DNA of 64,000 bases, taken from Anoxybacter fermentans. Its GTDB lineage: Bacteria > Bacillota > Halanaerobiia > DY22613. The stretch spans positions 930,001-994,000 of the forward strand of contig NZ_CP016379.1 of assembly GCF_003991135.1 (NCBI RefSeq), read 5' to 3'. The notes beneath the pieces were generated by a model. It was not told the DNA's origin, searched no databases, and was given only the letters and a program-made list of their open reading frames with translations. Below are positions 4,293 to 52,054 of the stretch, one piece after another; the first letter of the stretch is position 1; each line of letters opens with the position of its first letter. A program made the translations under genes and the position numbers.

Positions 4293-4480
4293 TGATTAAA
4301 CTGCAAAAAGCTAATTTTGAGTGACATAGAAGTTTTTTGTTAAATCATCTTGGTGAGATTTCGGTCGAAATAAGGCCTCATATGAGAATGTGATGAGCTA
4401 ATCAAGTTACTGAATTCGAACTTTAGATGGTTCGAAAAATTTCTTTTGAAGTGAAAAATTAGCTTTTCGCAGTAAAATCA
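4293..4480 (-). repeat. Palindromic element, full short form
   Basis: About 188 bp in reverse orientation, from TGATTAAACTGC to GCAGTAAAATCA. The arms pair over most of their length. It lies between the S9 peptidase terminator and the kinase gene. Confidence 0.9.
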
Positions 4481-8627: not shown

Positions 8628-8816
8628 GATTTTACTGCAAAAAAGCTAATTTTTCGCTTCAAAAGAAATTTTTCGAACTATCTAAAGTTCGATTTCAGTA
8701 ACTTGATTAGCTTATCACATCCTCATATGAGGCCTTATTTTGGCTGAAATCTCACTAAGAGGGTTTAACGAAAAATTTCTATGTCGCTCAAAATTAACTT
8801 TTTACAGTTTAATTAT
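8628..8816 (+). repeat. Palindromic element, full short form
   Basis: About 189 bp, forward orientation, upstream of the secreted CBM9-like gene. The centre carries ACATCCTCATATGAGG in place of the usual CATCC-TGTGATGAGG hairpin. Confidence 0.9.
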
Positions 8817-12469: not shown

Positions 12470-12691
12470 TGATTTTACTGCAAAAAGCTAATTTTTCGCT
12501 TCAAGAGAAATTTTTCGAACCATCTAAAGTTCGATTTCACTCGAAATAAGGTACACTAATCAATGGGCCCTTCTGGCCCTTGATTAGCTCATCACATCTT
12601 GTGATGAGGTCTTGTTTCGACTGAAATCTTACTAAGATGATTTAACGAAAAATTTCTATTTCGCTCAAAATTAGCTTTTTACAGTTTAATC
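12470..12691 (+). repeat. Palindromic element, full long form
   Basis: About 222 bp, forward. The centre has the GGGCCCTTCTGGCCC and ATCACATCTTGTGAT hairpins typical of the long form. It lies between DUF5714 (divergent) and the OsmC gene. Confidence 0.92.
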
Positions 12692-13343: not shown

Positions 13344-13496
13344 TGATTTTACTGCAAAAAAACTAATTTTTCGCTTCATAAAGAGATTTTTCGAACCATC
13401 TAAAGTTCGATTTCAGTCGAAATAAGGCACACTATTGACCTTTGATTAGCTCATCATATCTTATGATGAGGCCATTTTTTTCAATCTCACTAAGGC
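13344..13496 (+). repeat. Palindromic element, truncated at right
   Basis: Left arm and centre are present. The right arm stops after CAATCTCACTAAG, where sequence related to the nitrilase gene begins. The junction looks like a recombination breakpoint. Confidence 0.85.
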
Positions 13497-23844: not shown

Positions 23845-25086
23845 ATGCAGGATGAAAAAGCGATTTATGATGTGAGAAAATTGCCTTTTAGTCAAATGAT
23901 TTTGCTTGGTATGCAACATGCTCTGGCCATGTTTGGTGCTACAGTATTGGTACCGATTTTGACTGGCCTGAATGTATCAGTTGCATTATTTACCGCTGGT
24001 GTTGGAACCTGGATCTTCCACTTGATTACTAAAAAGAAGGTTCCAGCTTATTTAGGTTCATCCTTTGCTTTTATTGCACCGATTTCGATTGTTGTTGAAA
24101 AGATGGGTATTCCAGCAGCTCAAGGTGGTATTATTGTAGCAGGTCTTGTCTATGCTGCAATGGCTTTTATAATCTATCTTGTAGGTCCTAAACTAATCAA
24201 TTCTCTTTTCCCACCCATTGTAACTGGCCCAGTAATTATGGTTATCGGTTTAACCCTGGCTCCAGTTGCTATCGATATGGCTTCTGGAAATCTGTTTGTA
24301 GCTTTGGTTGCAATATTGGCTGCTGCCTTTGTTAGTGTATTTACCCGCGGTTTCTTTAGACTAATTCCTGTAATGATGGGTCTAATTGCGGGTTATATCA
24401 CAGCTTTATTTGTTGGTATTGTTGACTTTACTCCATTAAAGGAAGCTGCCTGGTTTGGTCTACCTAATTTCACTGTACCAGCTATTAACTGGAGTGCAAT
24501 TTTGATGATTGCTCCGGTAGCCATCGTATCCATGGTAGAACATGTTGGTGATATTTTAGCTATTAGTGCTACTGTTGGCAAAGGTAAAGAGTTTGTTGAA
24601 AATCCAGGTATTCATCTTACTATGTTAGGTGATGGTATTGCGACTTCTGTGGCAGGTATTTTCGGTGGACCACCTAATACTACTTATTCTGAAAATACCG
24701 GAGTTCTGGCTTTAACTAAAGTATATGATTCTGTTGTCATGCGGATTGCTGCAGTTTTTGCGTTGATTCTCTCTCTGGTTCCAAAATTAGGTGCTCTGAT
24801 TTCCACCATTCCTAAACCTGTTATTGGTGGAATATCTATCCTTCTTTTCGGTATGATTGCCAGTGTTGGTGTAAGGACAATGATTGAGAATAATGTTGAC
24901 CTGACCAAATCCAGAAACCTGATTATTGCCAGTGTTATTCTGGTTATCGGCATTGGTGGAGCAACCATTCATGTTGGTAACCTGGAATTTGCAGGTATGG
25001 GTTTGGCCGGTCTGGCTGGTCTGGTTTTGAATAAACTTTTACCTGACAATCTGGGTGAAAGTTCTAATAATTCAGTCAACTTCTGA
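23845..25086 (+). CDS. NCS2 uracil/xanthine permease
   Basis: A 413-residue membrane protein with about 14 hydrophobic segments. The family signature regions are seen: [15 protein letters not shown] at the start, [16 protein letters not shown] (the substrate-binding helix 8 Glu in VEHVGD), and [20 protein letters not shown] (helix 10). The E/GxxxT pattern is that of UraA/PyrP rather than the eukaryote-like ascorbate members. It imports a nucleobase with H+ or Na+. It ends the hydroxylase operon with a strong terminator. Confidence 0.93.
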
Positions 25087-25114
25087 CCGGGAAGATTTCT
25101 TCCCGGTCTTTTTC
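25085..25114 (+). terminator. Terminator after permease
   Basis: The 10-bp perfect stem GACCGGGAAG/CTTCCCGGTC with an ATTT loop and a TTTTT tail overlaps the permease stop codon. Confidence 0.9.
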
Positions 25115-25123
25115 AAAAAATAA

Positions 25124-25152
25124 TTGAAATTTGGTTAATTATGATTTATAAT
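25124..25152 (+). promoter_or_regulatory. Promoter of the HutP-like gene
   Basis: TTGAAA and TATAAT are separated by 17 bases. Transcription should start near 25159, just before the HutP-like gene, so this gene and the downstream decarboxylase genes may form one transcript controlled at the following attenuator. Confidence 0.7.
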
Positions 25153-25165
25153 AAATTATGAAATT

Positions 25166-25642
25166 ATGGATTCCGGGATGGAAGGGAACGTGTTATCTGT
25201 GGAAGAGCCCAAAGTTAATTTTTTTAAAAATGATAAGATGCAGGTTGGAAAAGCAGCTATGTTATTGGCTCTAACTTCTAACCGACAGGAAGAGGTAGAG
25301 ATTAAAACATACTTAAAAGAACGGTACAACTATGATACAGTAGTAACAGAGGTTGGTGGAGTTTTACGAGATATCAAAGGTCGAGTTGTGAAATCAGTGG
25401 TTAGTGCTGCTATAAATGCCGGTATCCTTGAAAAGAAAAGTAACCATATTCATCCTCTGATTCATGCTACTCTTGAGGCTGAAAGAGGTATGATGTTTGA
25501 TCTTCCAACTCAATCGAGTATTGTTATGAAAGTTGCCATTGTGGTAGGAGATAAATGGCTGGCTGTGGCCATGTATGGTGAATCTGCTATTCATGTCCTT
25601 TCCAATCACGAGCGAGCTGGACTCGGAATCATGCATCTATGA
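25166..25642 (+). CDS. HutP-family RNA-binding antiterminator
   Basis: About 150 residues. The C-terminal part resembles Bacillus HutP: HPLIHATLEAE keeps the H-x3-H pair and GLGIMHL the third His that in HutP bind the metal with the ligand. The WLAVAMYG strand is also shared. HutP hexamers bind NAG repeats in hut mRNA and prevent termination when histidine and Mg2+ are present. No histidine-use genes are in the window, so the ligand may differ. The start is uncertain: the first ATG lacks a ribosome site, and GTG codons at 25190 and 25199 follow GGAAGGG. The RNA target appears to lie immediately downstream. Confidence 0.82.
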   Translation: MDSGMEGNVLSVEEPKVNFFKNDKMQVGKAAMLLALTSNRQEEVEIKTYLKERYNYDTVVTEVGGVLRDIKGRVVKSVVSAAINAGILEKKSNHIHPLIHATLEAERGMMFDLPTQSSIVMKVAIVVGDKWLAVAMYGESAIHVLSNHERAGLGIMHL

Positions 25643-25643
25643 T

Positions 25644-25740
25644 TTTAGTGAAATAGTGATCCAGTGAAGTTAAAGTTTAAATTTAATATACGAAGGCCAA
25701 AGATGTGGAAGCATCTTTGAGTGATTTAGTGAAAGAGTGA
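25644..25740 (+). promoter_or_regulatory. Six AGUGA octamers in two triplets flanking a hairpin
   Basis: Three contiguous 8-base units NNNAGTGA (25644-25667), then the 8-bp hairpin CAAAGATG/CATCTTTG with a TGGAAG loop (25698-25719), then three more units (25717-25740, overlapping the hairpin's 3' end by 3 bases). AGTGA is identical in all six. The array sits between the HutP-like gene and a terminator, the place expected for an antiterminator target. HutP sites known from Bacillus have UAG/NAG triplets with 4-base spacers, here the spacing is 5. Confidence 0.8.
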
Positions 25741-25793
25741 AGCCTTATCTGGTTACTCCTTTTAGCTAAGGGGTATCAGTAGGGCTTTTTTTA
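25740..25793 (+). terminator. Attenuator terminator before decarboxylase operon
   Basis: A long imperfect stem (AAGCC...GGCTT outside, TACTCCTT/AAGGGGTA inside, loop TTAGCT) is followed by seven T. Its 5' foot touches the last AGUGA octamer, so protein bound there could block the fold. Confidence 0.8.
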
Positions 25794-25831
25794 TTTTCAA
25801 AGGCCGATAGATTATGAGGAGGGATTTGAAG

Positions 25832-27382
25832 GTGCTCAAAGAACAAAAAATTAGAGAATTATACGATAAAAGAGAGCGGTTAATGAAGGGTGGAGGAGAG
25901 GAGAAGATTAAAAAACAGCATAGTAAAGGTAAGCTGACTGCGAGGGAGCGGATCAAACTGCTATTAGACGAAAATAGCTTTGTAGAGGTAAATCCTTTTA
26001 TGAGTCATAGATGTGTCGATTTCGGGATGGATAAGGTAGATGCTCCTGGTGACGGAGTAGTGACAGGATATGGTACCATTCATGGCAGATTGGTTTTTGT
26101 ATTTGCCCAAGATTTCACCGTTATGGGCGGTTCTCTGGGTGAAATCCATGCTGCTAGAATTTGCAAAATTATGGATATGGCTAAAGAAATGGGTGCACCT
26201 ATCATCGGGTTATATGATTCCGGTGGTGCGCGGATTCAAGAAGGGGTTCTGGCTTTGAATGGTTTCGGTGAAATTTTTGCCCGTAATGCTCTCTGTTCCG
26301 GTGTAGTTCCACAAATTTCTGTTATCATGGGGCCATGTGCTGGAGGTGCAGTTTATTCCCCTGCTTTAACTGATTTTGTCTTTATGGTTGATAATACCAG
26401 TCAGATGTTTCTAACTGGTCCTGAGGTGATCAAATCGATAACCGGTGAAGAAGTTACTATGGAAGAATTGGGCGGTTCTATAACCCATGCAGTTAAAAGT
26501 GGAGTTGCCCATTTTACCGCCAGTAGTGAAGAGGAATGTATGGAACAGGTCCGCCGTCTTTTAAGCTTTATTCCATCAAATAATCTGGAAGATGCGCCAA
26601 TGGGTCTTGCCAAAAATGGTGAAATTTTTGATGAAAATGCAGTAAAAGACCTGATTCCAGACCACCCCAATAAACCGTATGATATGAAAAAGGTTATAAA
26701 TCATCTGGTAGACCAGGGGGATTTTATGGAAATCCATGCCCGGTTTGCGAAAAATATAATAGTTGGATTTGGGCGGTTAAATGGTCGGACTGTGGGGATT
26801 GTTGCTAACCAACCGATGCATAAAGCCGGTTGTCTGGATATTGATGCATCTGATAAAGCATCACGCTTTATCAGATTCTGTGACGCCTTTAATATTCCCT
26901 TATTAACTCTGGTAGATGTACCTGGTTTTTTACCAGGAGTCAGTCAGGAATATGGTGGAATCATAAGACACGGTGCTAAACTTCTTTATGCTTATACAGA
27001 AGCGACAGTTCCCAAGATTACTCTGGTGGTACGGAAAGCATACGGCGGTGGTTATATCGCCATGTGTAGCAAATCTCTGGGGGCTGATCTGGTCTATGCC
27101 TGGCCAACTGCTGAAATTGCAGTTATGGGACCTGAAGGTGCAGCCAACATTATTTTTAGAAAAGAGATTGCTGCTGCCAGGGATCCCGAAATGGTTCGTC
27201 AGAAAAAGATTGCTGAATACCGGGAACAGTTTGCTAATCCATATGTAGCCGCAAAAGCTGGAATTGTCAATGATGTGCTGTCTTTTGAAGAAACCCGGAT
27301 GCGCTTGATTAATAGTCTGGAAATGTTGGAAAATAAAAGGGTTTCAAAGCCCCAGCGGAAACATGGTAATATGCCATTATAA
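25832..27382 (+). CDS. Acyl-CoA carboxyltransferase alpha subunit of Na+-decarboxylase (MmdA-like)
   Basis: A 516-residue carboxyltransferase with the two crotonase-like halves of MmdA/PccB. It shows oxyanion-hole glycines in GLYDSGGARIQEGV and MGPCAGGAVYSPALTDF, and in the second half VDVPGFLPGVSQE, GGGYIAMCSKSLGAD and AVMGPEGAANI. It moves CO2 from a beta-carboxy acyl-CoA (malonyl-, methylmalonyl- or glutaconyl-CoA) to biotin. GTG is chosen as start because GAGGAGGG lies 8 bases before it. Delta, biotin carrier and beta subunit genes follow, so it decarboxylates rather than carboxylates. Confidence 0.93.
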   Translation: MLKEQKIRELYDKRERLMKGGGEEKIKKQHSKGKLTARERIKLLLDENSFVEVNPFMSHRCVDFGMDKVDAPGDGVVTGYGTIHGRLVFVFAQDFTVMGGSLGEIHAARICKIMDMAKEMGAPIIGLYDSGGARIQEGVLALNGFGEIFARNALCSGVVPQISVIMGPCAGGAVYSPALTDFVFMVDNTSQMFLTGPEVIKSITGEEVTMEELGGSITHAVKSGVAHFTASSEEECMEQVRRLLSFIPSNNLEDAPMGLAKNGEIFDENAVKDLIPDHPNKPYDMKKVINHLVDQGDFMEIHARFAKNIIVGFGRLNGRTVGIVANQPMHKAGCLDIDASDKASRFIRFCDAFNIPLLTLVDVPGFLPGVSQEYGGIIRHGAKLLYAYTEATVPKITLVVRKAYGGGYIAMCSKSLGADLVYAWPTAEIAVMGPEGAANIIFRKEIAAARDPEMVRQKKIAEYREQFANPYVAAKAGIVNDVLSFEETRMRLINSLEMLENKRVSKPQRKHGNMPL

Positions 27383-27423: not shown

Positions 27424-27765
27424 ATGGACAATATAAGTTTAGGTCTACAATTGACTTTTTTTGGAATGGGGGCAGTATTTTTAGCTCTGACCGGGCTTGC
27501 AATATTTTTGGATGTATTGAAAAAAGTTGTGGATTTAAGGGAAAATTTCAAGATTAGTATCTCGACTGAGAAGAATAAAATAGTTGAGCAAAAAAACTCT
27601 CCCCATAATTCATCTGAAGATATTGAATTGGTTGCGGTAATAACTGGGGCTATTGCCGCGCTGATGGAAGAGGAAAAAGGATATGTTCCAAATTTTAAGA
27701 TTGCATCCATTACCCCTGTTTCTAATGTCTGGAAAATGCAAGGACGTTTTGATTTAATTAAGTAG
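27424..27765 (+). CDS. OadG-type delta/gamma subunit of sodium pump decarboxylase
   Basis: A 113-residue protein with one N-terminal transmembrane helix (LGLQLTFFGMGAVFLALTGL), a charged linker and a VAVITGAIAALMEE motif typical of OadG/MmdD. It anchors the carboxyltransferase to the membrane beta subunit. Between the alpha and biotin-carrier genes. Confidence 0.9.
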   Translation: MDNISLGLQLTFFGMGAVFLALTGLAIFLDVLKKVVDLRENFKISISTEKNKIVEQKNSPHNSSEDIELVAVITGAIAALMEEEKGYVPNFKIASITPVSNVWKMQGRFDLIK

Positions 27766-27797
27766 AGAAGAATAAAATATCTTTTGGGTGTTCAATC

Positions 27798-28013
27798 TTA
27801 TTAACTGCAAAAAACTAATTTTTCGCTCCAGAATTTTTCTAACCATCTAAAGTTCGAGCTCAATCGAAATAAGGCACATTATAAACGTGTTCTTCTGACC
27901 CTTGATTAGTTCATTACATCCTCATATGAGGCCTTACTTCTTCTTCGATCCTATTTAAGATGGTTTTAATGAAAAATTACTATGTCGCTCAAAATTAGCT
28001 CTTTGCAGTTTAT
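27798..28013 (+). repeat. Palindromic element inside the decarboxylase gene set
   Basis: About 215 bp, forward, more diverged than most copies (TTTTTCTAACCATC, CCTCATATGAGG centre). It separates the delta and biotin-carrier genes, so it must be transcribed if these are one operon. Confidence 0.88.
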
Positions 28014-28103
28014 CAGATATTTCTATGCAAAATGTTATCCATAACCTACGAAATGTATAATTTCCTAAATATTTAAAAAATTAGTTAGAGAGGTGGATAT
28101 AAA

Positions 28104-28508
28104 ATGGTTAGAAAATTTAAGGTTAAAGTAAAAGGCGAGATATATGAGGTGGAAGTTGAAGAAGTTAGGGAAAAGAATGAAATTGGTGGAGTTTCTACAA
28201 CAGTTGCAACTACAACTACAGTTCAAGCTCCAGAGGTTACTTCTACTCCTGAAACGCCTCGAAAACCTCAATCCAAAAAAGCAATAACCGGGGGAACTGA
28301 GCAGGTTAAAGCTCCGATGCCCGGAACTATTTTAGATGTAAAAGTTAAAGTTGGTGACAGAGTTAAGGCTGGTGATGCGGTTGTAGTTTTAGAAGCTATG
28401 AAAATGGAAAATGATATTATGACGTCAGTTGATGGAGAAGTGAAGGAAGTTCTTGTGAATTCCGGTGCTACCGTGAATGAGGGAGATATATTAGTGGTGA
28501 TTGGCTAG
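28104..28508 (+). CDS. Biotin carrier subunit of sodium pump decarboxylase
   Basis: A 134-residue protein. A charged N-terminal strand pair (MVRKFKVKVKGEIYEVEVEE), a Thr/Pro-rich flexible linker (residues 35-65) and a C-terminal biotinyl domain with EAMKMEN, Lys100 carrying biotin. It shuttles CO2 from the alpha to the beta subunit. The ribosome site is AGAGGTGG. Confidence 0.93.
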   Translation: MVRKFKVKVKGEIYEVEVEEVREKNEIGGVSTTVATTTTVQAPEVTSTPETPRKPQSKKAITGGTEQVKAPMPGTILDVKVKVGDRVKAGDAVVVLEAMKMENDIMTSVDGEVKEVLVNSGATVNEGDILVVIG

Positions 28509-28533: not shown

Positions 28534-29664
28534 ATGATTACAAGGCTATTTGATTTTTTAAACTCAACTGGTTATGCGAACATCACACTGGGTCAGGGCG
28601 GAATGATTATAATTTCCTGCTTTTTGATGTATCTAGCCATAAAAAAGAAATATGAACCACTGCTTCTTTTACCCATAGCTTTTGGTATGCTATTAGCTAA
28701 CTTACCTCTGTCAGGAATTATGGATGGCCCGGTAGGTGATAGTGTGGGGGGACTTCTTTATTATCTTTATAAAGGGGTTAAATTGGGAATTTATCCTCCC
28801 CTGATCTTTCTTGGAGTTGGTGCTATGACCGATTTTGGGCCACTAATTGCCAATCCCAAAACATTAATTTTGGGTGCGGCGGCTCAATTTGGAATTTTTT
28901 TCACCCTTTTAGGTGCTTTGATATTAGGGTTCAGTCCCACTGAAGCCAGTTCAATCGGGATTATTGGTGGTGCTGATGGTCCAACTGCCATCTTTTTAAC
29001 AGCAAAACTTGCTCCTCATTTGTTGGGTTCAATTGCGGTAGCGGCATACTCCTATATGGCCCTGGTTCCCATTATTCAACCACCGATTATGCGGGCTTTG
29101 ACCACCAAAGAGGAGCGGCAGGTAGTGATGAAGACACTTCGCCCTGTTTCTAAAACAGAACGAATTCTTTTTCCTATTCTGGTAACTATCATAGTTGGAC
29201 TCTTTTTACCGTCTGCTGTACCATTACTGGGAAGTCTGATGTTTGGTAACCTGATGCGGGAATCGGGTGTGGTTGATCGACTCTTAAAAACGTCTCAGAA
29301 TGATTTGCTGAACATTATAACTATCTTTTTAGGACTTTCTGTAGGTGCAACAGCTACCGCAGAAAGGTTCTTGACTGTGAAAACTATTATGATTATAGGG
29401 CTTGGTCTTGTAGCTTTTGCCTTTGGTACAGCTATGGGAGTAATATTTGGAAAGATTATGTACAGATTGAGTGGTGGTAAAGTTAATCCACTGATTGGTG
29501 CTGCAGGAGTATCAGCAGTACCCATGGCTGCACGGGTAGTTCAGACAGTTGGTCAAAAAGAGAATCCGAAAAATTTTCTTCTGATGCATGCCATGGGTCC
29601 AAATGTTGCTGGTGTAATCGGCTCTGCCGTTGCTGCAGGAGTTTTGTTATCCATTTTAGGATAA
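28534..29664 (+). CDS. OadB-type beta subunit, Na+-translocating decarboxylase
   Basis: A 376-residue membrane protein with about 10 hydrophobic segments. The family signatures [33 protein letters not shown] and [16 protein letters not shown] are present. The first contains the Asp that in OadB binds Na+. It decarboxylates carboxybiotin and pumps 1-2 Na+ out of the cell, conserving the energy. It lies last of the decarboxylase genes, before the PucR regulator. Confidence 0.95.
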
Positions 29665-29691
29665 GAATCTAGACTAAAGAGGTGTAGCTTG

Positions 29692-31350
29692 ATGAAACGA
29701 GAGATTGGAATTACTGTAAGGGAAGCCTTACGGCTTGAACCCTTGAAGAATGCAAAGATTGTAGCGGGAACGAAAGGAATAAATCGGGTTATTAAATCTG
29801 TTAATATTATGGAAGTACCGGATATTGTCAAGTGGGTCAAAGAGGGAGAACTGTTATTAACCACTGTATTTGCTATTAGAGATGACAAAGAAGCGCAGCG
29901 CCGATTAATTCCTACTCTGGCGGGTCGGGGACTTGCAGGTATTGCTATTAAACCAGGGCGTTATATTGAAGAAATTCCCTCAATTATGCTTAAACAGGCT
30001 GATGAATATGGTTTTCCGTTGATAGAACTTCCCTTTGAAGCCTCCTTTTCTGATCTTATGGATTCTATTTTAAGTGAAATTTTAAATGTTCAGGCAGTAT
30101 TTTTAAAAAAATCTCTCGATACTCACGAGATGTTAATGGATGTGGTATTGAAAGGTGGCGGTCTGGAGGAAATTGCTAGAACTCTGGCCAGGCTTGTACA
30201 GAATCCGGTGGCTATCTTAAACCAGAATTTTGAAGTTCAGGCTCTGGACCTTATGGGTCAAATGGAGAAAGAAAATTTATTTGAAGTTGACCAGAGGAAC
30301 CCGGTTCTGCAGCTAAAAGAAAGGTTTTTGCCCGGCAAAAAGAAAGTGGGGCGTTTTAAAGAGACCTTGATTCAGGTTAATAATAGGGAGATACGGCAAA
30401 TGTCAATTCCTATCCTGGTTGGTCAGGATAACTATGGCTATATTTTTGTCTGGGAGATAGTCCGAAAGCTGGAAGCTATTGATCTGATAAGTATTGAAAG
30501 GGCAGTGACGGTAGCAGCAATGGAGATTTTAAACCAGCAGTCTATCTTTGAAGTTGAACGCCGATACCAGAATGACCTTCTTTATGATCTTTTGAATGGA
30601 CGGTTTGAATCAGAAGATGTGATGCTTTCCCGAGCAAAGGCTATGCACTGGGACCTTAAAGGACCATTCTGTGTAATTATCTTTGAATTGATTAAGGATT
30701 CTAATGCCAACAGTAACTCACGAAAAAAACATATGATCTGGAATCGAATTGTCCAGGGTGTAAAACAAATCTGTGAAAATAAAAAAGAAGAAGTTATATT
30801 TGGAGAGTGGGGCACCAGGTTAATCTTACTTCATTCTATTCCTGATAAACAGGATGATCTGGACAATTATCTGGGGAAAACCATTGATGAAGTTAAGCAA
30901 TTAATTGAACAATATCAACAAAAATATTATATCGGTGTTAGTTCTCTCTCAAAGGGACTTTTTTCTCTCAAACAAAGTTATAGGGAAGCCAAGGAGTCAA
31001 TTAGGGTGGCAAAAATAACCAATTGCTATGGGAAGGTTCTATATTATGAAAAGTTAGGTGTTTACCGTTTGCTGCATAAAATTGATGCCAAAGTTTTAGA
31101 AAATTTTTTGCATGATATCCTGGGCCCTCTAATCCGATATGATCAGGAGAATAACACCGAACTGGTAAAAACCCTGGATTGCTATTTTAAAAATAATGCT
31201 AACTTAAAGCGTTTGGCAGATGAGTTATACGTTCACTATAATACCATTCTTTATAGGATGGAACGAATTCAAACTATTCTGGGTGTTGATCTTAGTGATC
31301 GGGATACTCGTCTGAATTTAGAGATTGCTTTGAAAATTTATTTTGGTTGA
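29692..31350 (+). CDS. PucR family transcriptional regulator
   Basis: A 552-residue regulator. The N-terminal PucR domain (residues 5-135, VREALRLEPLKNAKIVAGTKG ... NIMEVPDIVKWVKEGELLLTT) is followed by a GAF-like/CdaR middle and a C-terminal HTH_30 (NLKRLADELYVHYNTILYRM). ATG is chosen behind AGAGGTG. Bacillus PucR senses allantoin-type purine breakdown products, so control of the surrounding nucleobase/ureide genes is likely. The effector is not known. Confidence 0.92.
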   Translation: MKREIGITVREALRLEPLKNAKIVAGTKGINRVIKSVNIMEVPDIVKWVKEGELLLTTVFAIRDDKEAQRRLIPTLAGRGLAGIAIKPGRYIEEIPSIMLKQADEYGFPLIELPFEASFSDLMDSILSEILNVQAVFLKKSLDTHEMLMDVVLKGGGLEEIARTLARLVQNPVAILNQNFEVQALDLMGQMEKENLFEVDQRNPVLQLKERFLPGKKKVGRFKETLIQVNNREIRQMSIPILVGQDNYGYIFVWEIVRKLEAIDLISIERAVTVAAMEILNQQSIFEVERRYQNDLLYDLLNGRFESEDVMLSRAKAMHWDLKGPFCVIIFELIKDSNANSNSRKKHMIWNRIVQGVKQICENKKEEVIFGEWGTRLILLHSIPDKQDDLDNYLGKTIDEVKQLIEQYQQKYYIGVSSLSKGLFSLKQSYREAKESIRVAKITNCYGKVLYYEKLGVYRLLHKIDAKVLENFLHDILGPLIRYDQENNTELVKTLDCYFKNNANLKRLADELYVHYNTILYRMERIQTILGVDLSDRDTRLNLEIALKIYFG

Positions 31351-35488: not shown

Positions 35489-35508
35489 TTAAGGAAGGAA
35501 TGAGAACT

Positions 35509-36660
35509 ATGACCAATAATAAACCGTTAAAGGATGTAATAGTTCTCGATCTTACCCGGGTTCTGGCGGGGCCATATTGTACAATGATTTTGGCCGATCT
35601 CGGGGCAGAAGTAATTAAGGTTGAGCGTCCCGGGGTCGGTGACGATTCCCGGGCCTTTGGCCCATTTATCAATGGCAAGAGCGCATATTTTATCAGTCTT
35701 AATCGGGGGAAAAAAAGTATTGTTCTTAATTTAAAAGATGAAAAAGATCGGGAAATATTTAAACAATTGGTAAAAAAAGTAGATGTATTGACAGAAAACT
35801 TCCGACCCGGAACAATGGAAAAACTTGGTTTTGGGTATGAAGAGTTAAAGAAAATCAACCCCCGTTTAATTTATGCGGCAACTTCCGGTTTTGGTCACAC
35901 AGGTCCTAAATCTAAAAAAGCTGCTTATGATATGATTGTTCAGGCGGCCGGTGGAATTATGAGTATAACGGGTCATCCGGGCGGGCCTCCTACCCGTGTA
36001 GGGGCTTCCATTGGAGATATTATTGCTGGTCTATTTACTGCCATTGGCGTTTGTGCAGCCCTTTATCAGCGCGAAAAGACTGGAAAAGGGCAAAAGATTG
36101 ATGTTGCCATGTTAGATTCCCAGGTGGCAATTCTGGAGAATGCTATTGCCCGTTATATTGTGACTGGTGAGCCGCCAAAACCTCTGGGTGCGCGGCATCC
36201 TTCTATTACACCATTTGAAGCCTTTAAAGCTGCTGATGATTGGGTGATTATAGCTATAGGTAATGATGCGCTCTGGGCCAAATTCTGTAAAGCAGTTGGT
36301 CGGGAAGATTTGATTGACCATCCCGAATTTGCAACCAATGCTAAACGGACCGAGAACTATGATAAACTCAAACCGATTATGGATGAGATTATTTCTAAAA
36401 AGACTGCCGCTGAGTGGATTGAAGAGTTAGACAAAGCTGGAATTCCTGTAGGACCAATTAATACAATTGATAAACTCTTTGAAGATCCACAGATTAAAGC
36501 CCGCAATATGCTGGTAGATGTTAATGATCCTGAAATTGGTAAAATGAAGGTTGCTGGTAATCCAATTAAGATGTCCTCTTTTGAGGATGAGAAAGATCGG
36601 CAACCTGCTCCCAATCTGGGTGAACATACTGAAGAAATCTTAAAAAGATTTTTGGGGTAA
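35509..36660 (+). CDS. Class III (CaiB/BaiF) CoA-transferase
   Basis: A 383-residue enzyme. LDLTRVLAGPYCTMILADLGAEVIK and ENFRPGTMEKLG are typical. The catalytic aspartate aligns to Asp170 in GASIGD, matching Asp169 of formyl-CoA transferase. It moves CoA between carboxylic acids. Next to a biotin decarboxylase, a dicarboxylate such as malonate or methylmalonate is a reasonable acceptor, which is inference. ATG is chosen behind GGAAGGA. A 12-base gap to the DUF1116 gene indicates one operon. Confidence 0.93.
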   Translation: MTNNKPLKDVIVLDLTRVLAGPYCTMILADLGAEVIKVERPGVGDDSRAFGPFINGKSAYFISLNRGKKSIVLNLKDEKDREIFKQLVKKVDVLTENFRPGTMEKLGFGYEELKKINPRLIYAATSGFGHTGPKSKKAAYDMIVQAAGGIMSITGHPGGPPTRVGASIGDIIAGLFTAIGVCAALYQREKTGKGQKIDVAMLDSQVAILENAIARYIVTGEPPKPLGARHPSITPFEAFKAADDWVIIAIGNDALWAKFCKAVGREDLIDHPEFATNAKRTENYDKLKPIMDEIISKKTAAEWIEELDKAGIPVGPINTIDKLFEDPQIKARNMLVDVNDPEIGKMKVAGNPIKMSSFEDEKDRQPAPNLGEHTEEILKRFLG

Positions 36661-37561: not shown

Positions 37562-37788
37562 ATGGTTAAACTGCAAAAAAGCTAATTTTTCGCTTCTTGA
37601 GAAATTTTTCGAATCATCTAAAGCTCGATTTCCGCCGAAGTAAGGCTTCCTAATCAAAGGGCCCTCCTGGCCCTTAGAACTAGCTCATCACCTCCTGTGA
37701 TGAGGCCTTATTTCGTCGGAAATTTCGCTAAGATGATTTGGCGAAAAATTTCTATGTCGCTCAAAATTAGCTTTTTGCAGTAAAATGA
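37562..37788 (+). repeat. Palindromic element, full long form
   Basis: About 227 bp, forward. The two arms pair for about 85 bases each. The tip bears AAGGGCC-CTCCT-GGCCCTT and ATCAC-CTCCT-GTGAT hairpins. It lies just upstream of the nitrilase gene. Confidence 0.95.
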
Positions 37789-44093: not shown

Positions 44094-44315
44094 AATTATA
44101 CTGCAAAAAGCTAATTTTGAGCGACATAGAAATTTTTCGCCAAATCATCTTAGCGAGATTTCCAACGAAATAAGGCTTCATCACAGGAGGTGATGAGCTA
44201 ATCAAGGGCCAGGAGGACCCTTTGATTAGGAAGCCTTATTTTGGCTGAAATCGAGCTTTAGATGGTTCGAAAAATTTCTCAAGGAGTGAAAAATTAGCTT
44301 TTTGCAGTTTAATCA
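44094..44315 (-). repeat. Palindromic element, full long form
   Basis: About 222 bp, reverse. The tip shows CATCAC-AGGAG-GTGATG and GGGCC-AGGAG-GACCC hairpins with identical AGGAG loops. It lies directly before direct repeat copy B. Confidence 0.95.
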
Positions 44316-45209: not shown

Positions 45210-45431
45210 TGATTATACTGCAAAAAACTAATTTTGAACGACATAGAAATTTTTCGCTAAATCATCTTAGCGAGATCTCTGCCGAAATAAGGCCTTATCA
45301 CAGGAGGTGATGAGCTAATCAAGAGCCAGGAGGTCCCTTTGATTAGGAAGCTTTATTTCAGCTGAAATCGAGCTTTAGATGATTCGAAAAATTTCTCAAG
45401 AAGTGAAAATTAGCTTTTTGCAGTTTAACCA
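45210..45431 (-). repeat. Palindromic element, full long form
   Basis: About 222 bp, reverse, close in sequence to the copy at 44094. AGGAG loops are kept (ATCAC-AGGAG-GTGAT, GAGCC-AGGAG-GTCCC, the second stem weakened). It lies upstream of the methionine synthase genes. Confidence 0.95.
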
Positions 45432-49375: not shown

Positions 49376-49562
49376 AATTTTACTTGCAAAAAGCTAATTT
49401 TTTGCTTCAAGAGAAATTTTTCGAGCCATCTAAAGTTCGATTTCAGTAACTTGATTAGCTCATCACATCCTGTGATGAGGCCTTATTTTGACTGAAATCT
49501 CACTGAGATGGTTTAACGAAAAATTTCTATGTCGCTCAAAATTAGCTTTTTGCAGTGTAATC
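49376..49562 (+). repeat. Palindromic element, full short form
   Basis: About 187 bp, forward, directly after metH and before the 3' end of the convergent membrane-protein gene. No other terminator is seen there, so its long stem may end transcription. Confidence 0.92.
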
Positions 49563-49567
49563 ATTTA

Positions 49568-51650: not shown

Positions 51651-51832
51651 TGATTTTACTGCCAAAAGTTAATTTTTTGCTTCCAAAGAAATTTTTCGAA
51701 TCATTTAAAGTTCGATTTCAGTAACTTGATTAGCTCATCACATCCTGTGATGAGGCCTTATTTCGATTGAAATCTCACTAAGATAACGAAAAATTTCTAT
51801 GTCGCTCAAAATTAGCTTTTTGCAGTTTAATC
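51651..51832 (+). repeat. Palindromic element, full short form
   Basis: About 182 bp, forward, with a 7-base deletion in the right arm (CTAAGATAACGAAAAATTTC). It lies in the divergent region between the M3 peptidase and nitroreductase genes. Confidence 0.92.
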
Positions 51833-52054
51833 ATTCTTCAAAAAGATGAGATTATCCTGCTTGATATATGATTTTACTTTATATAAGCGAAATATATGGA
51901 GGAAAATATAGAGACTATCGAGAATATTAAAGCTGTACTAACCTTTTAAGGAAAAATAATCCCAAAAAACGGAAAATCTATACTTTCAGAATATAATCAA
52001 CCTAGGGACTTATAAAAATTATGAAATATAAAGTTAAAGGAGGTTTTAAATCTG

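Follow-up and report, generated by a model that had tools for sequence, protein, structure and literature searches.

A HutP-family gene, paired AGTGA octamer arrays and an attenuator ahead of a decarboxylase operon in Anoxybacter fermentans: a probable antitermination switch outside histidine utilization

In a 64,000-nucleotide stretch of the Anoxybacter fermentans genome (contig NZ_CP016379.1, positions 930,001 to 994,000, forward strand; hereafter the window), a hutP-like gene is followed directly by two arrays of three octamers, a hairpin and an intrinsic terminator, beyond which lie the genes of a decarboxylase. The arrays, their period and conservation, their overlap with the terminator, the protein family and its metal-site residues, and a genomic association with malonate genes are shown below. 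The locus is likely a leader-encoded, ligand-dependent HutP-type antiterminator, probably sensing malonate or a near metabolite, with RNA binding, hexamer formation, ligand and direction of control being inferred. HutP is known for regulating a single operon, that for histidine use in Bacillus; here the same layout, with an RNA step of its own, precedes unrelated operons in further Bacillota-type genomes, and the window system likely represents an undescribed branch of HutP-type RNA switches.

Results

Two octamer arrays and a terminator follow the hutP-like gene

Six identical AGTGA units with an exact 8-nt period form triplets at 25647-25667 and 25720-25740, within the octamer arrays listed in Table 1. 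The mean number of AGTGA triplets expected from dinucleotide shuffles was 0.00, and two triplets occurred in 0/100 shuffles; array I scored 15 of 15, a value reached in 0/200 shuffles. A control with the pattern read backwards was void, as AGTGA reads identically in reverse. No exact match to the AGTGA triplet was found in the 3.56-Mb genome beyond the two arrays, and a genome search with a degenerate array-plus-GCC pattern returned no trans target. The inter-array hairpin is also present in the predicted fold. The 5′ arm of the terminator starts GAAGCC, within the last AGTGA, such that the last two bases of this unit are the terminator foot. The locus has the layout expected of HutP-type attenuation, in which the regulator gene is followed by two three-unit NAG clusters and a terminator. 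No Rfam family matched in the window above its gathering score.

A permease gene upstream ends in a terminator at 25085-25108, with the candidate promoter (Table 1) downstream of it. In a region-wide consensus scan promoter-like sites were equally frequent in shuffled sequence; the site and the upstream terminator are compatible with the possibility that the hutP-like gene is first in its own transcription unit.

Table 1. Features of the hutP-like locus and the downstream genes (window coordinates)
Feature	Position	Strand	Remarks
Candidate promoter before hutP-like gene	25124..25152	+	TTGAAA-17-TATAAT; 11/12 consensus matches
hutP-like gene	25190..25642	+	PF09021, 117.5 bits (cut-off 25), profile 1-128 of 128; 150 aa from GTG 25190
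Array I, three octamers NNNAGTGA	25644..25667	+	just past stop codon; exact period-8 AGTGA x3
Inter-array hairpin	25698..25719	+	perfect 8 bp (25698-25705 / 25712-25719), 6-nt loop
Array II, three octamers NNNAGTGA	25717..25740	+	exact period-8 AGTGA x3; last unit overlaps terminator foot
Intrinsic terminator (attenuator) hairpin	25739..25788	+	-25.1 kcal/mol; U tract to about 25793
Biotin-dependent carboxyltransferase (MmdA-like), predicted first controlled gene	25814..27382	+	PF01039, 674 bits
Decarboxylase gamma	27424-27765	+	profile matches
Biotin carrier	28104-28508	+	profile matches
Decarboxylase beta	28534-29664	+	profile matches
Class III CoA-transferase	35500..36660	+	PF02515

The protein keeps the HutP metal site and lacks other hut-invariant residues

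A profile search placed the hutP-like gene product in the HutP family over the full profile (Table 1). The open reading frame spans 25166-25642 if counted from the ATG at 25166, the start used in the first-pass annotation; the in-frame GTG at 25190, preceded by GGAAGGG at 25180-25186, is the likelier start as judged from sequence alone. The NCBIfam equivalog for hut HutP (NF002838) was not met, the window protein scoring 39.5 bits, under the cut-off of 155. On alignment, His73, His77, Glu81 and His138 of Bacillus subtilis HutP are kept in the window protein; the three histidines, which hold the metal in published HutP structures, occur in all 25 relatives compared and Glu81 in 23 of them (counts omit the divergent L038 and L091, both without the histidines). 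With the same two omitted, six residues invariant in a comparison set of five hut-type HutPs (Tyr69, Arg88, Arg98, Thr99, Glu55 and Thr56) have been substituted or lost in all, or almost all, of the relatives compared, and the window protein keeps none of Tyr69, Arg88 and Arg98. These arginines and Tyr69 of hut HutP are thought to lie near ligand or RNA. An AlphaFold monomer model (two sequences) was too poor for use (mean pLDDT 41).

Two further HutP-family genes occur in the A. fermentans genome, at L001 (1483-1908, minus strand) and L003 (1117-1887, plus strand). The L003 protein is fused to CBS domains. Both paralogues are without the metal-site histidines, and both are also without visible arrays.

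Period-8 arrays recur at the terminators of HutP-linked leaders

Among 398 genomes of the phylum, a profile search found close relatives in 23, and the leaders of these relatives were read. A scan of genome contigs returned only a metagenome-assembled genome (MAG) of the sister genus, Halothermothrix sp. (L036 = L092), whose HutP is 78% identical and whose leader carries period-8 arrays in both positions, the spacer between them being otherwise diverged. None of the other 58 genomes of the class contains the exact AGTGA triple, since AGAGA/AGCGA variants occur already in the sister genus.

Just before the terminator, 18 HutP-linked leaders (window excluded, a few mutually related) had a period-8 self-similarity of 0.409, whereas the 181 control terminators of these loci gave 0.271 (P=8e-6); in the 18 leaders, period 10 came second (0.358). 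The period-8 value was reached in 0/5000 within-sequence shuffles of 17 leaders and held when the nif clade and the sister genus were removed (0.402). An AGTGA x3 score of >=10 was obtained for 11/18 HutP-linked leaders and 1/181 control terminators. The controls are purine-poorer (0.53 vs 0.70), which inflates this last contrast at all periods; the self-similarity test and the within-sequence shuffles are therefore the cleaner evidence. In 14/19 leaders, window included, the last unit ends +2 or +4 nt within the terminator 5′ arm; in L074, L085, L086 and L088, where the automatic fold ran further, the foot of the terminator was placed manually on the basis of the sequence. The terminator-side triplet is the constant element across loci. 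Arrays are 7-nt, irregular or unrecognizable in a few relatives (L071, L076, L077, L078). Elsewhere in the class, HutP relatives at ~30% identity (L008-L035) had no visible arrays in the stretches read, with the caveat that for minus-strand loci the stretch inspected was not the true downstream side; the aligned L008 relative is without the metal histidines.

These comparisons bear on several claims of the first-pass annotation, which had been made from the window sequence alone. Its description of a HutP-like gene, six identical AGTGA octamers in two triplets, an 8-bp hairpin and a terminator foot at the last unit held in all parts. The conserved core AGUGA held in the window; across relatives it is AGNGA, with 54 units outside the window giving A44, G44, T27/A15/G7/C5, G47 and A39, counts biased towards AGTGA since units were chosen by likeness to it. 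Two triple sites likewise held in the window, with the upstream array clear and statistically supported in four loci only (window, sister genus, L071, L088). Absence of the octamer pattern from related genomes had been named as a refutation; the pattern is present, with both arrays in the sister genus and a spacing of 8,8 fitting best in 14/19 leaders under the AGTGA-scoring rule (window included), so this condition was not met.

An earlier scan of 360 nt downstream for AGTGA x3 was rejected as underpowered, several convincing leaders being not significant; anchoring on the terminator solved the problem. Two further arrangements were observed. At L068 and L069, a period-8 array lies no more than ~40 nt ahead of the start codon of the hutP-like gene (L068: GGGTGAGA GAGTGAAA GAGTGAGA), a position in the gene's own 5′ leader from which autoregulation may be inferred as a possibility. 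At L086, octamer-like units of degenerate sequence (AATAGAGT AACAGAGT type), far more than six, form a long series about 100-290 nt past the hutP-like stop codon.

A decarboxylase operon, and no hut gene, lies beyond the terminator

Past the terminator lies a sodium-pump decarboxylase operon, with profile matches, in order, to Carboxyl_trans, OAD_gamma, biotin carrier and OAD_beta. The carboxyltransferase matched TIGR01117 (mmdA) at 888 bits, under the cut-off of 999, and from sequence is likely the alpha subunit of malonyl-CoA or methylmalonyl-CoA decarboxylase; its homologues lie next to HutP in L078 and in the malonate-type clusters L083/L084. Homologues of the CoA-transferase, 59-81% identical, are found beside HutP in L071, L075, L078, L079, L080, L083, L084, L085 and L092. 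No hut gene was found among the neighbors examined (about 19.9-41 kb of the window), where decarboxylase, AllH/FdrA/AllG and CoA-transferase genes stand downstream in place of hut; the first-pass claim of decarboxylase genes downstream with no hut genes near therefore held over this range. A PucR-type regulator gene is located at 29689-31350.

Window positions 19931-40915 also contain, alongside the decarboxylase, PucR, AllH, FdrA, AllG and CoA-transferase genes, an XDH-like oxidase, a nucleobase permease (Xan_ur_permease), a cyclase-family hydrolase and a nitrilase-family enzyme. A MITE-like palindromic element of ~220 nt with 28-nt terminal inverted repeats lies at 27795-28018, where it separates the gamma-subunit gene of the decarboxylase operon from that of the biotin carrier. 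Further copies, about 74-92% identical, are spread across the window at about 4293-4473, 8631-8811, 12474-12688, 13348-13435, 37569-37781, 44097-44313, 45210-45425, 49385-49563 and 51655-51833, and occur also in L001, L003 and L097.

HutP-branch genes are associated with malonate genes and also precede P-II and nif-type genes

The L076 leader precedes MdcA (PF16957, 943 bits), MdcD and MdcE, and the L080 leader precedes a CoA-transferase with MadL and MadM. MadM was found in 8/398 genomes, 6 of which belong to the 23 with the HutP branch (Fisher P=5e-7, uncorrected for phylogeny); in five genomes it shares a contig with the branch HutP, at a distance of about 7 kb or less. Carboxyltransferase, OadB and CoA-transferase genes are common to the window operon and the malonate-type loci. 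HutP-family genes of Rhodobacter capsulatus and Klebsiella sit in malonate decarboxylase (mad/mdc) operons; no array was recognized downstream of the Klebsiella gene, and that of Rhodobacter (L037) was not significant by AGTGA score. Between the HutP-family gene and mdcB of R. capsulatus pRCB133 (L037, 6650-6810), GTGA repeats with an 8-nt step (GTGATCCCGTGATGAG, GTGAGCAAGTGACATC) were seen, along with the complementary GGATCACG.

In the class of genome G061, the HutP branch is present in 41/83 genomes. Many of the 25 loci read there end GAGCGG AAAAGTGT TTTAGAGA GCCC or variants, with period 8, and most have a P-II-type gene within reach; these loci come from closely related genomes and are not independent. 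At L086 and L088 the downstream genes resemble nifI1, nifI2, nifH and nifD/K, by reading of the sequence rather than profile search. HutP-branch genes with the same leader layout before P-II/nif-type genes were observed at L082, L086, L087, L088 and many of L108-L132. If true, this placement would imply HutP-type control of nitrogen fixation.

Discussion

In the proposed mechanism, transcription from upstream of the hutP-like gene would pass through the gene and by default stop at the terminator. The HutP-like protein, by analogy a metal-bound hexamer, would be loaded with a small-molecule ligand and would then bind the NNNAGUGA triplets of the emerging transcript, each three-subunit ring taking one triplet, with an 8-nt step. 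Since the last unit overlaps the terminator 5′ arm, protein binding and termination should be mutually exclusive; with the terminator foot contained in the last unit of array II, protein on the RNA would prevent terminator formation and permit read-through into the decarboxylase operon. RNA binding, the hexamer, the direction of control and the ligand are inferences, there being no binding, transcription or ligand data.

The first-pass proposal of a new HutP-type riboregulator with a different ligand is supported, the ligand part only indirectly: absence of the hut-invariant residues and the gene context make sensing of something other than histidine likely. The ligands that it suggested (histidine, nucleobases, ureides) seem less probable than malonate, since the malonate context recurs. 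That the ligand here is malonate or a close metabolite is likely on gene context, in the absence of ligand data. Such a ligand would be chelated at the conserved three-histidine metal site; a dicarboxylate could conceivably do so, by analogy with the amino and carboxylate groups of histidine, and a substrate-type ligand would mean that the operon is induced by its own substrate. Nothing tying HutP to malonate or nif control was found in the open-access literature searched (subscription literature was outside the scope). The window genome has no MadM, so malonate would need an intracellular origin or another entry route. Oxidative pyrimidine breakdown ends in malonate and urea (PMC3758960), and it is a guess, no more than possible, that this supplies the malonate here, perhaps by an anaerobic pyrimidine-to-malonate route without known barbiturase; a barbiturase (PF09663) that would complete the route was sought in the genome and not found.

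The best surviving alternative, which remains possible, retains the same riboregulator with a non-malonate ligand, either a precursor from the nucleobase cluster (uracil, barbiturate, ureidomalonate, oxamate-type ureides) or a general signal for nitrogen or carboxylates, for example 2-oxoglutarate. In its favor, the window cluster has XDH-like oxidase, Xan_ur_permease, PucR, AllH, AllG and FdrA genes, and sister-branch members precede P-II and nif genes. Against it, the genes common to the window and malonate-type loci are decarboxylase, biotin carrier and CoA-transferase rather than nucleobase genes, and the MadM association is strong. Because the same branch also precedes nif/P-II and other operons, the ligand cannot be taken as malonate throughout.

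An ordinary histidine-dependent HutP recruited to another operon is unlikely. The family and the metal-site histidines are the same, and B. subtilis HutP likewise acts on two clusters of three NAG motifs (PMC7430163); however, the window protein falls far under the hut equivalog cut-off (39.5 vs 155 bits), Tyr69, Arg88, Arg98, Thr99 and Glu55 are changed or missing in the compared relatives, the RNA step is 8 rather than 7, and no hut genes are nearby. It is also improbable that, rather than antiterminating, bound HutP stabilizes termination or acts on translation or RNA decay. The direction of control has not been shown, and the L068/L069 array just upstream of the hutP-like start codon could control translation, but the conserved overlap of the last unit with the terminator 5′ arm is a requirement of antitermination, and known HutP prevents terminator formation (PMC7430163). 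Finally, the arrays could be direct-repeat DNA operators for a transcription factor unrelated to HutP, such as the nearby PucR protein, a reading rendered very unlikely by their position in a transcribed leader, on a fixed strand, tied to HutP and a terminator foot across very different genomes.

These loci are candidates for new small-molecule-responsive RNA regulators and offer a testable code, namely which protein residues set a 7- or 8-nt step; a control layer for malonate metabolism and nitrogen fixation may have gone unrecognized. A bolder reading, which could as readily prove wrong as right, is that metal-dependent RNA antiterminators using an octamer code, AGNGA with an 8-nt step, form a wide class of which HutP is only one branch, and that its branches sense different metal-chelating metabolites and control malonate use or nitrogen fixation (P-II, nif).

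Comparison with known systems

Malonate decarboxylase operons have DNA-binding regulators of LysR or GntR types. The same kind of operon is regulated in those cases, but LysR/GntR regulators act on DNA, whereas the window regulator is leader-encoded and of an RNA-binding family. In the trp leader, the ring-shaped multimer TRAP binds evenly spaced G/UAG triplets and decides between terminator and read-through. The proposed HutP-like switch would share the ring multimer, the evenly spaced leader repeats and the terminator/read-through choice; TRAP differs in being an unrelated protein, in using about 11 repeats and in promoting termination.

The closest system is hut HutP of B. subtilis (PDB 1vea, 1wmq; PF09021; NF002838), which shares the family and His73, His77, His138 and Glu81. 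There, too, the gene is first in its operon, with two three-unit clusters containing NAG and then an intrinsic terminator downstream. In hut leaders L135 and L136 the last unit also lies at the terminator foot. The first-pass annotation had likened the arrays to the two Bacillus hut sites with a spacing of 8 instead of 7. This was checked against four leaders behind plasmid-borne relatives of B. subtilis HutP (three annotated beside hutH, the Niallia record unannotated): UAG x3 is spaced 7,7 in Niallia and Peptoclostridium (2/4) and 8,7 in Cytobacillus, with no clean triplet in Priestia. A 7-nt step accordingly has support for hut, yet is not uniform in this small sample. In contrast to hut HutP, the window branch has a unit step of 8 nt instead of 7, a core of AGNGA instead of UAG alone, and shortened loops with Tyr69, Arg88, Arg98 and Thr99 lost; it scores far under the hut equivalog cut-off, and the operons that it is inferred to control are decarboxylase, malonate or nif operons.
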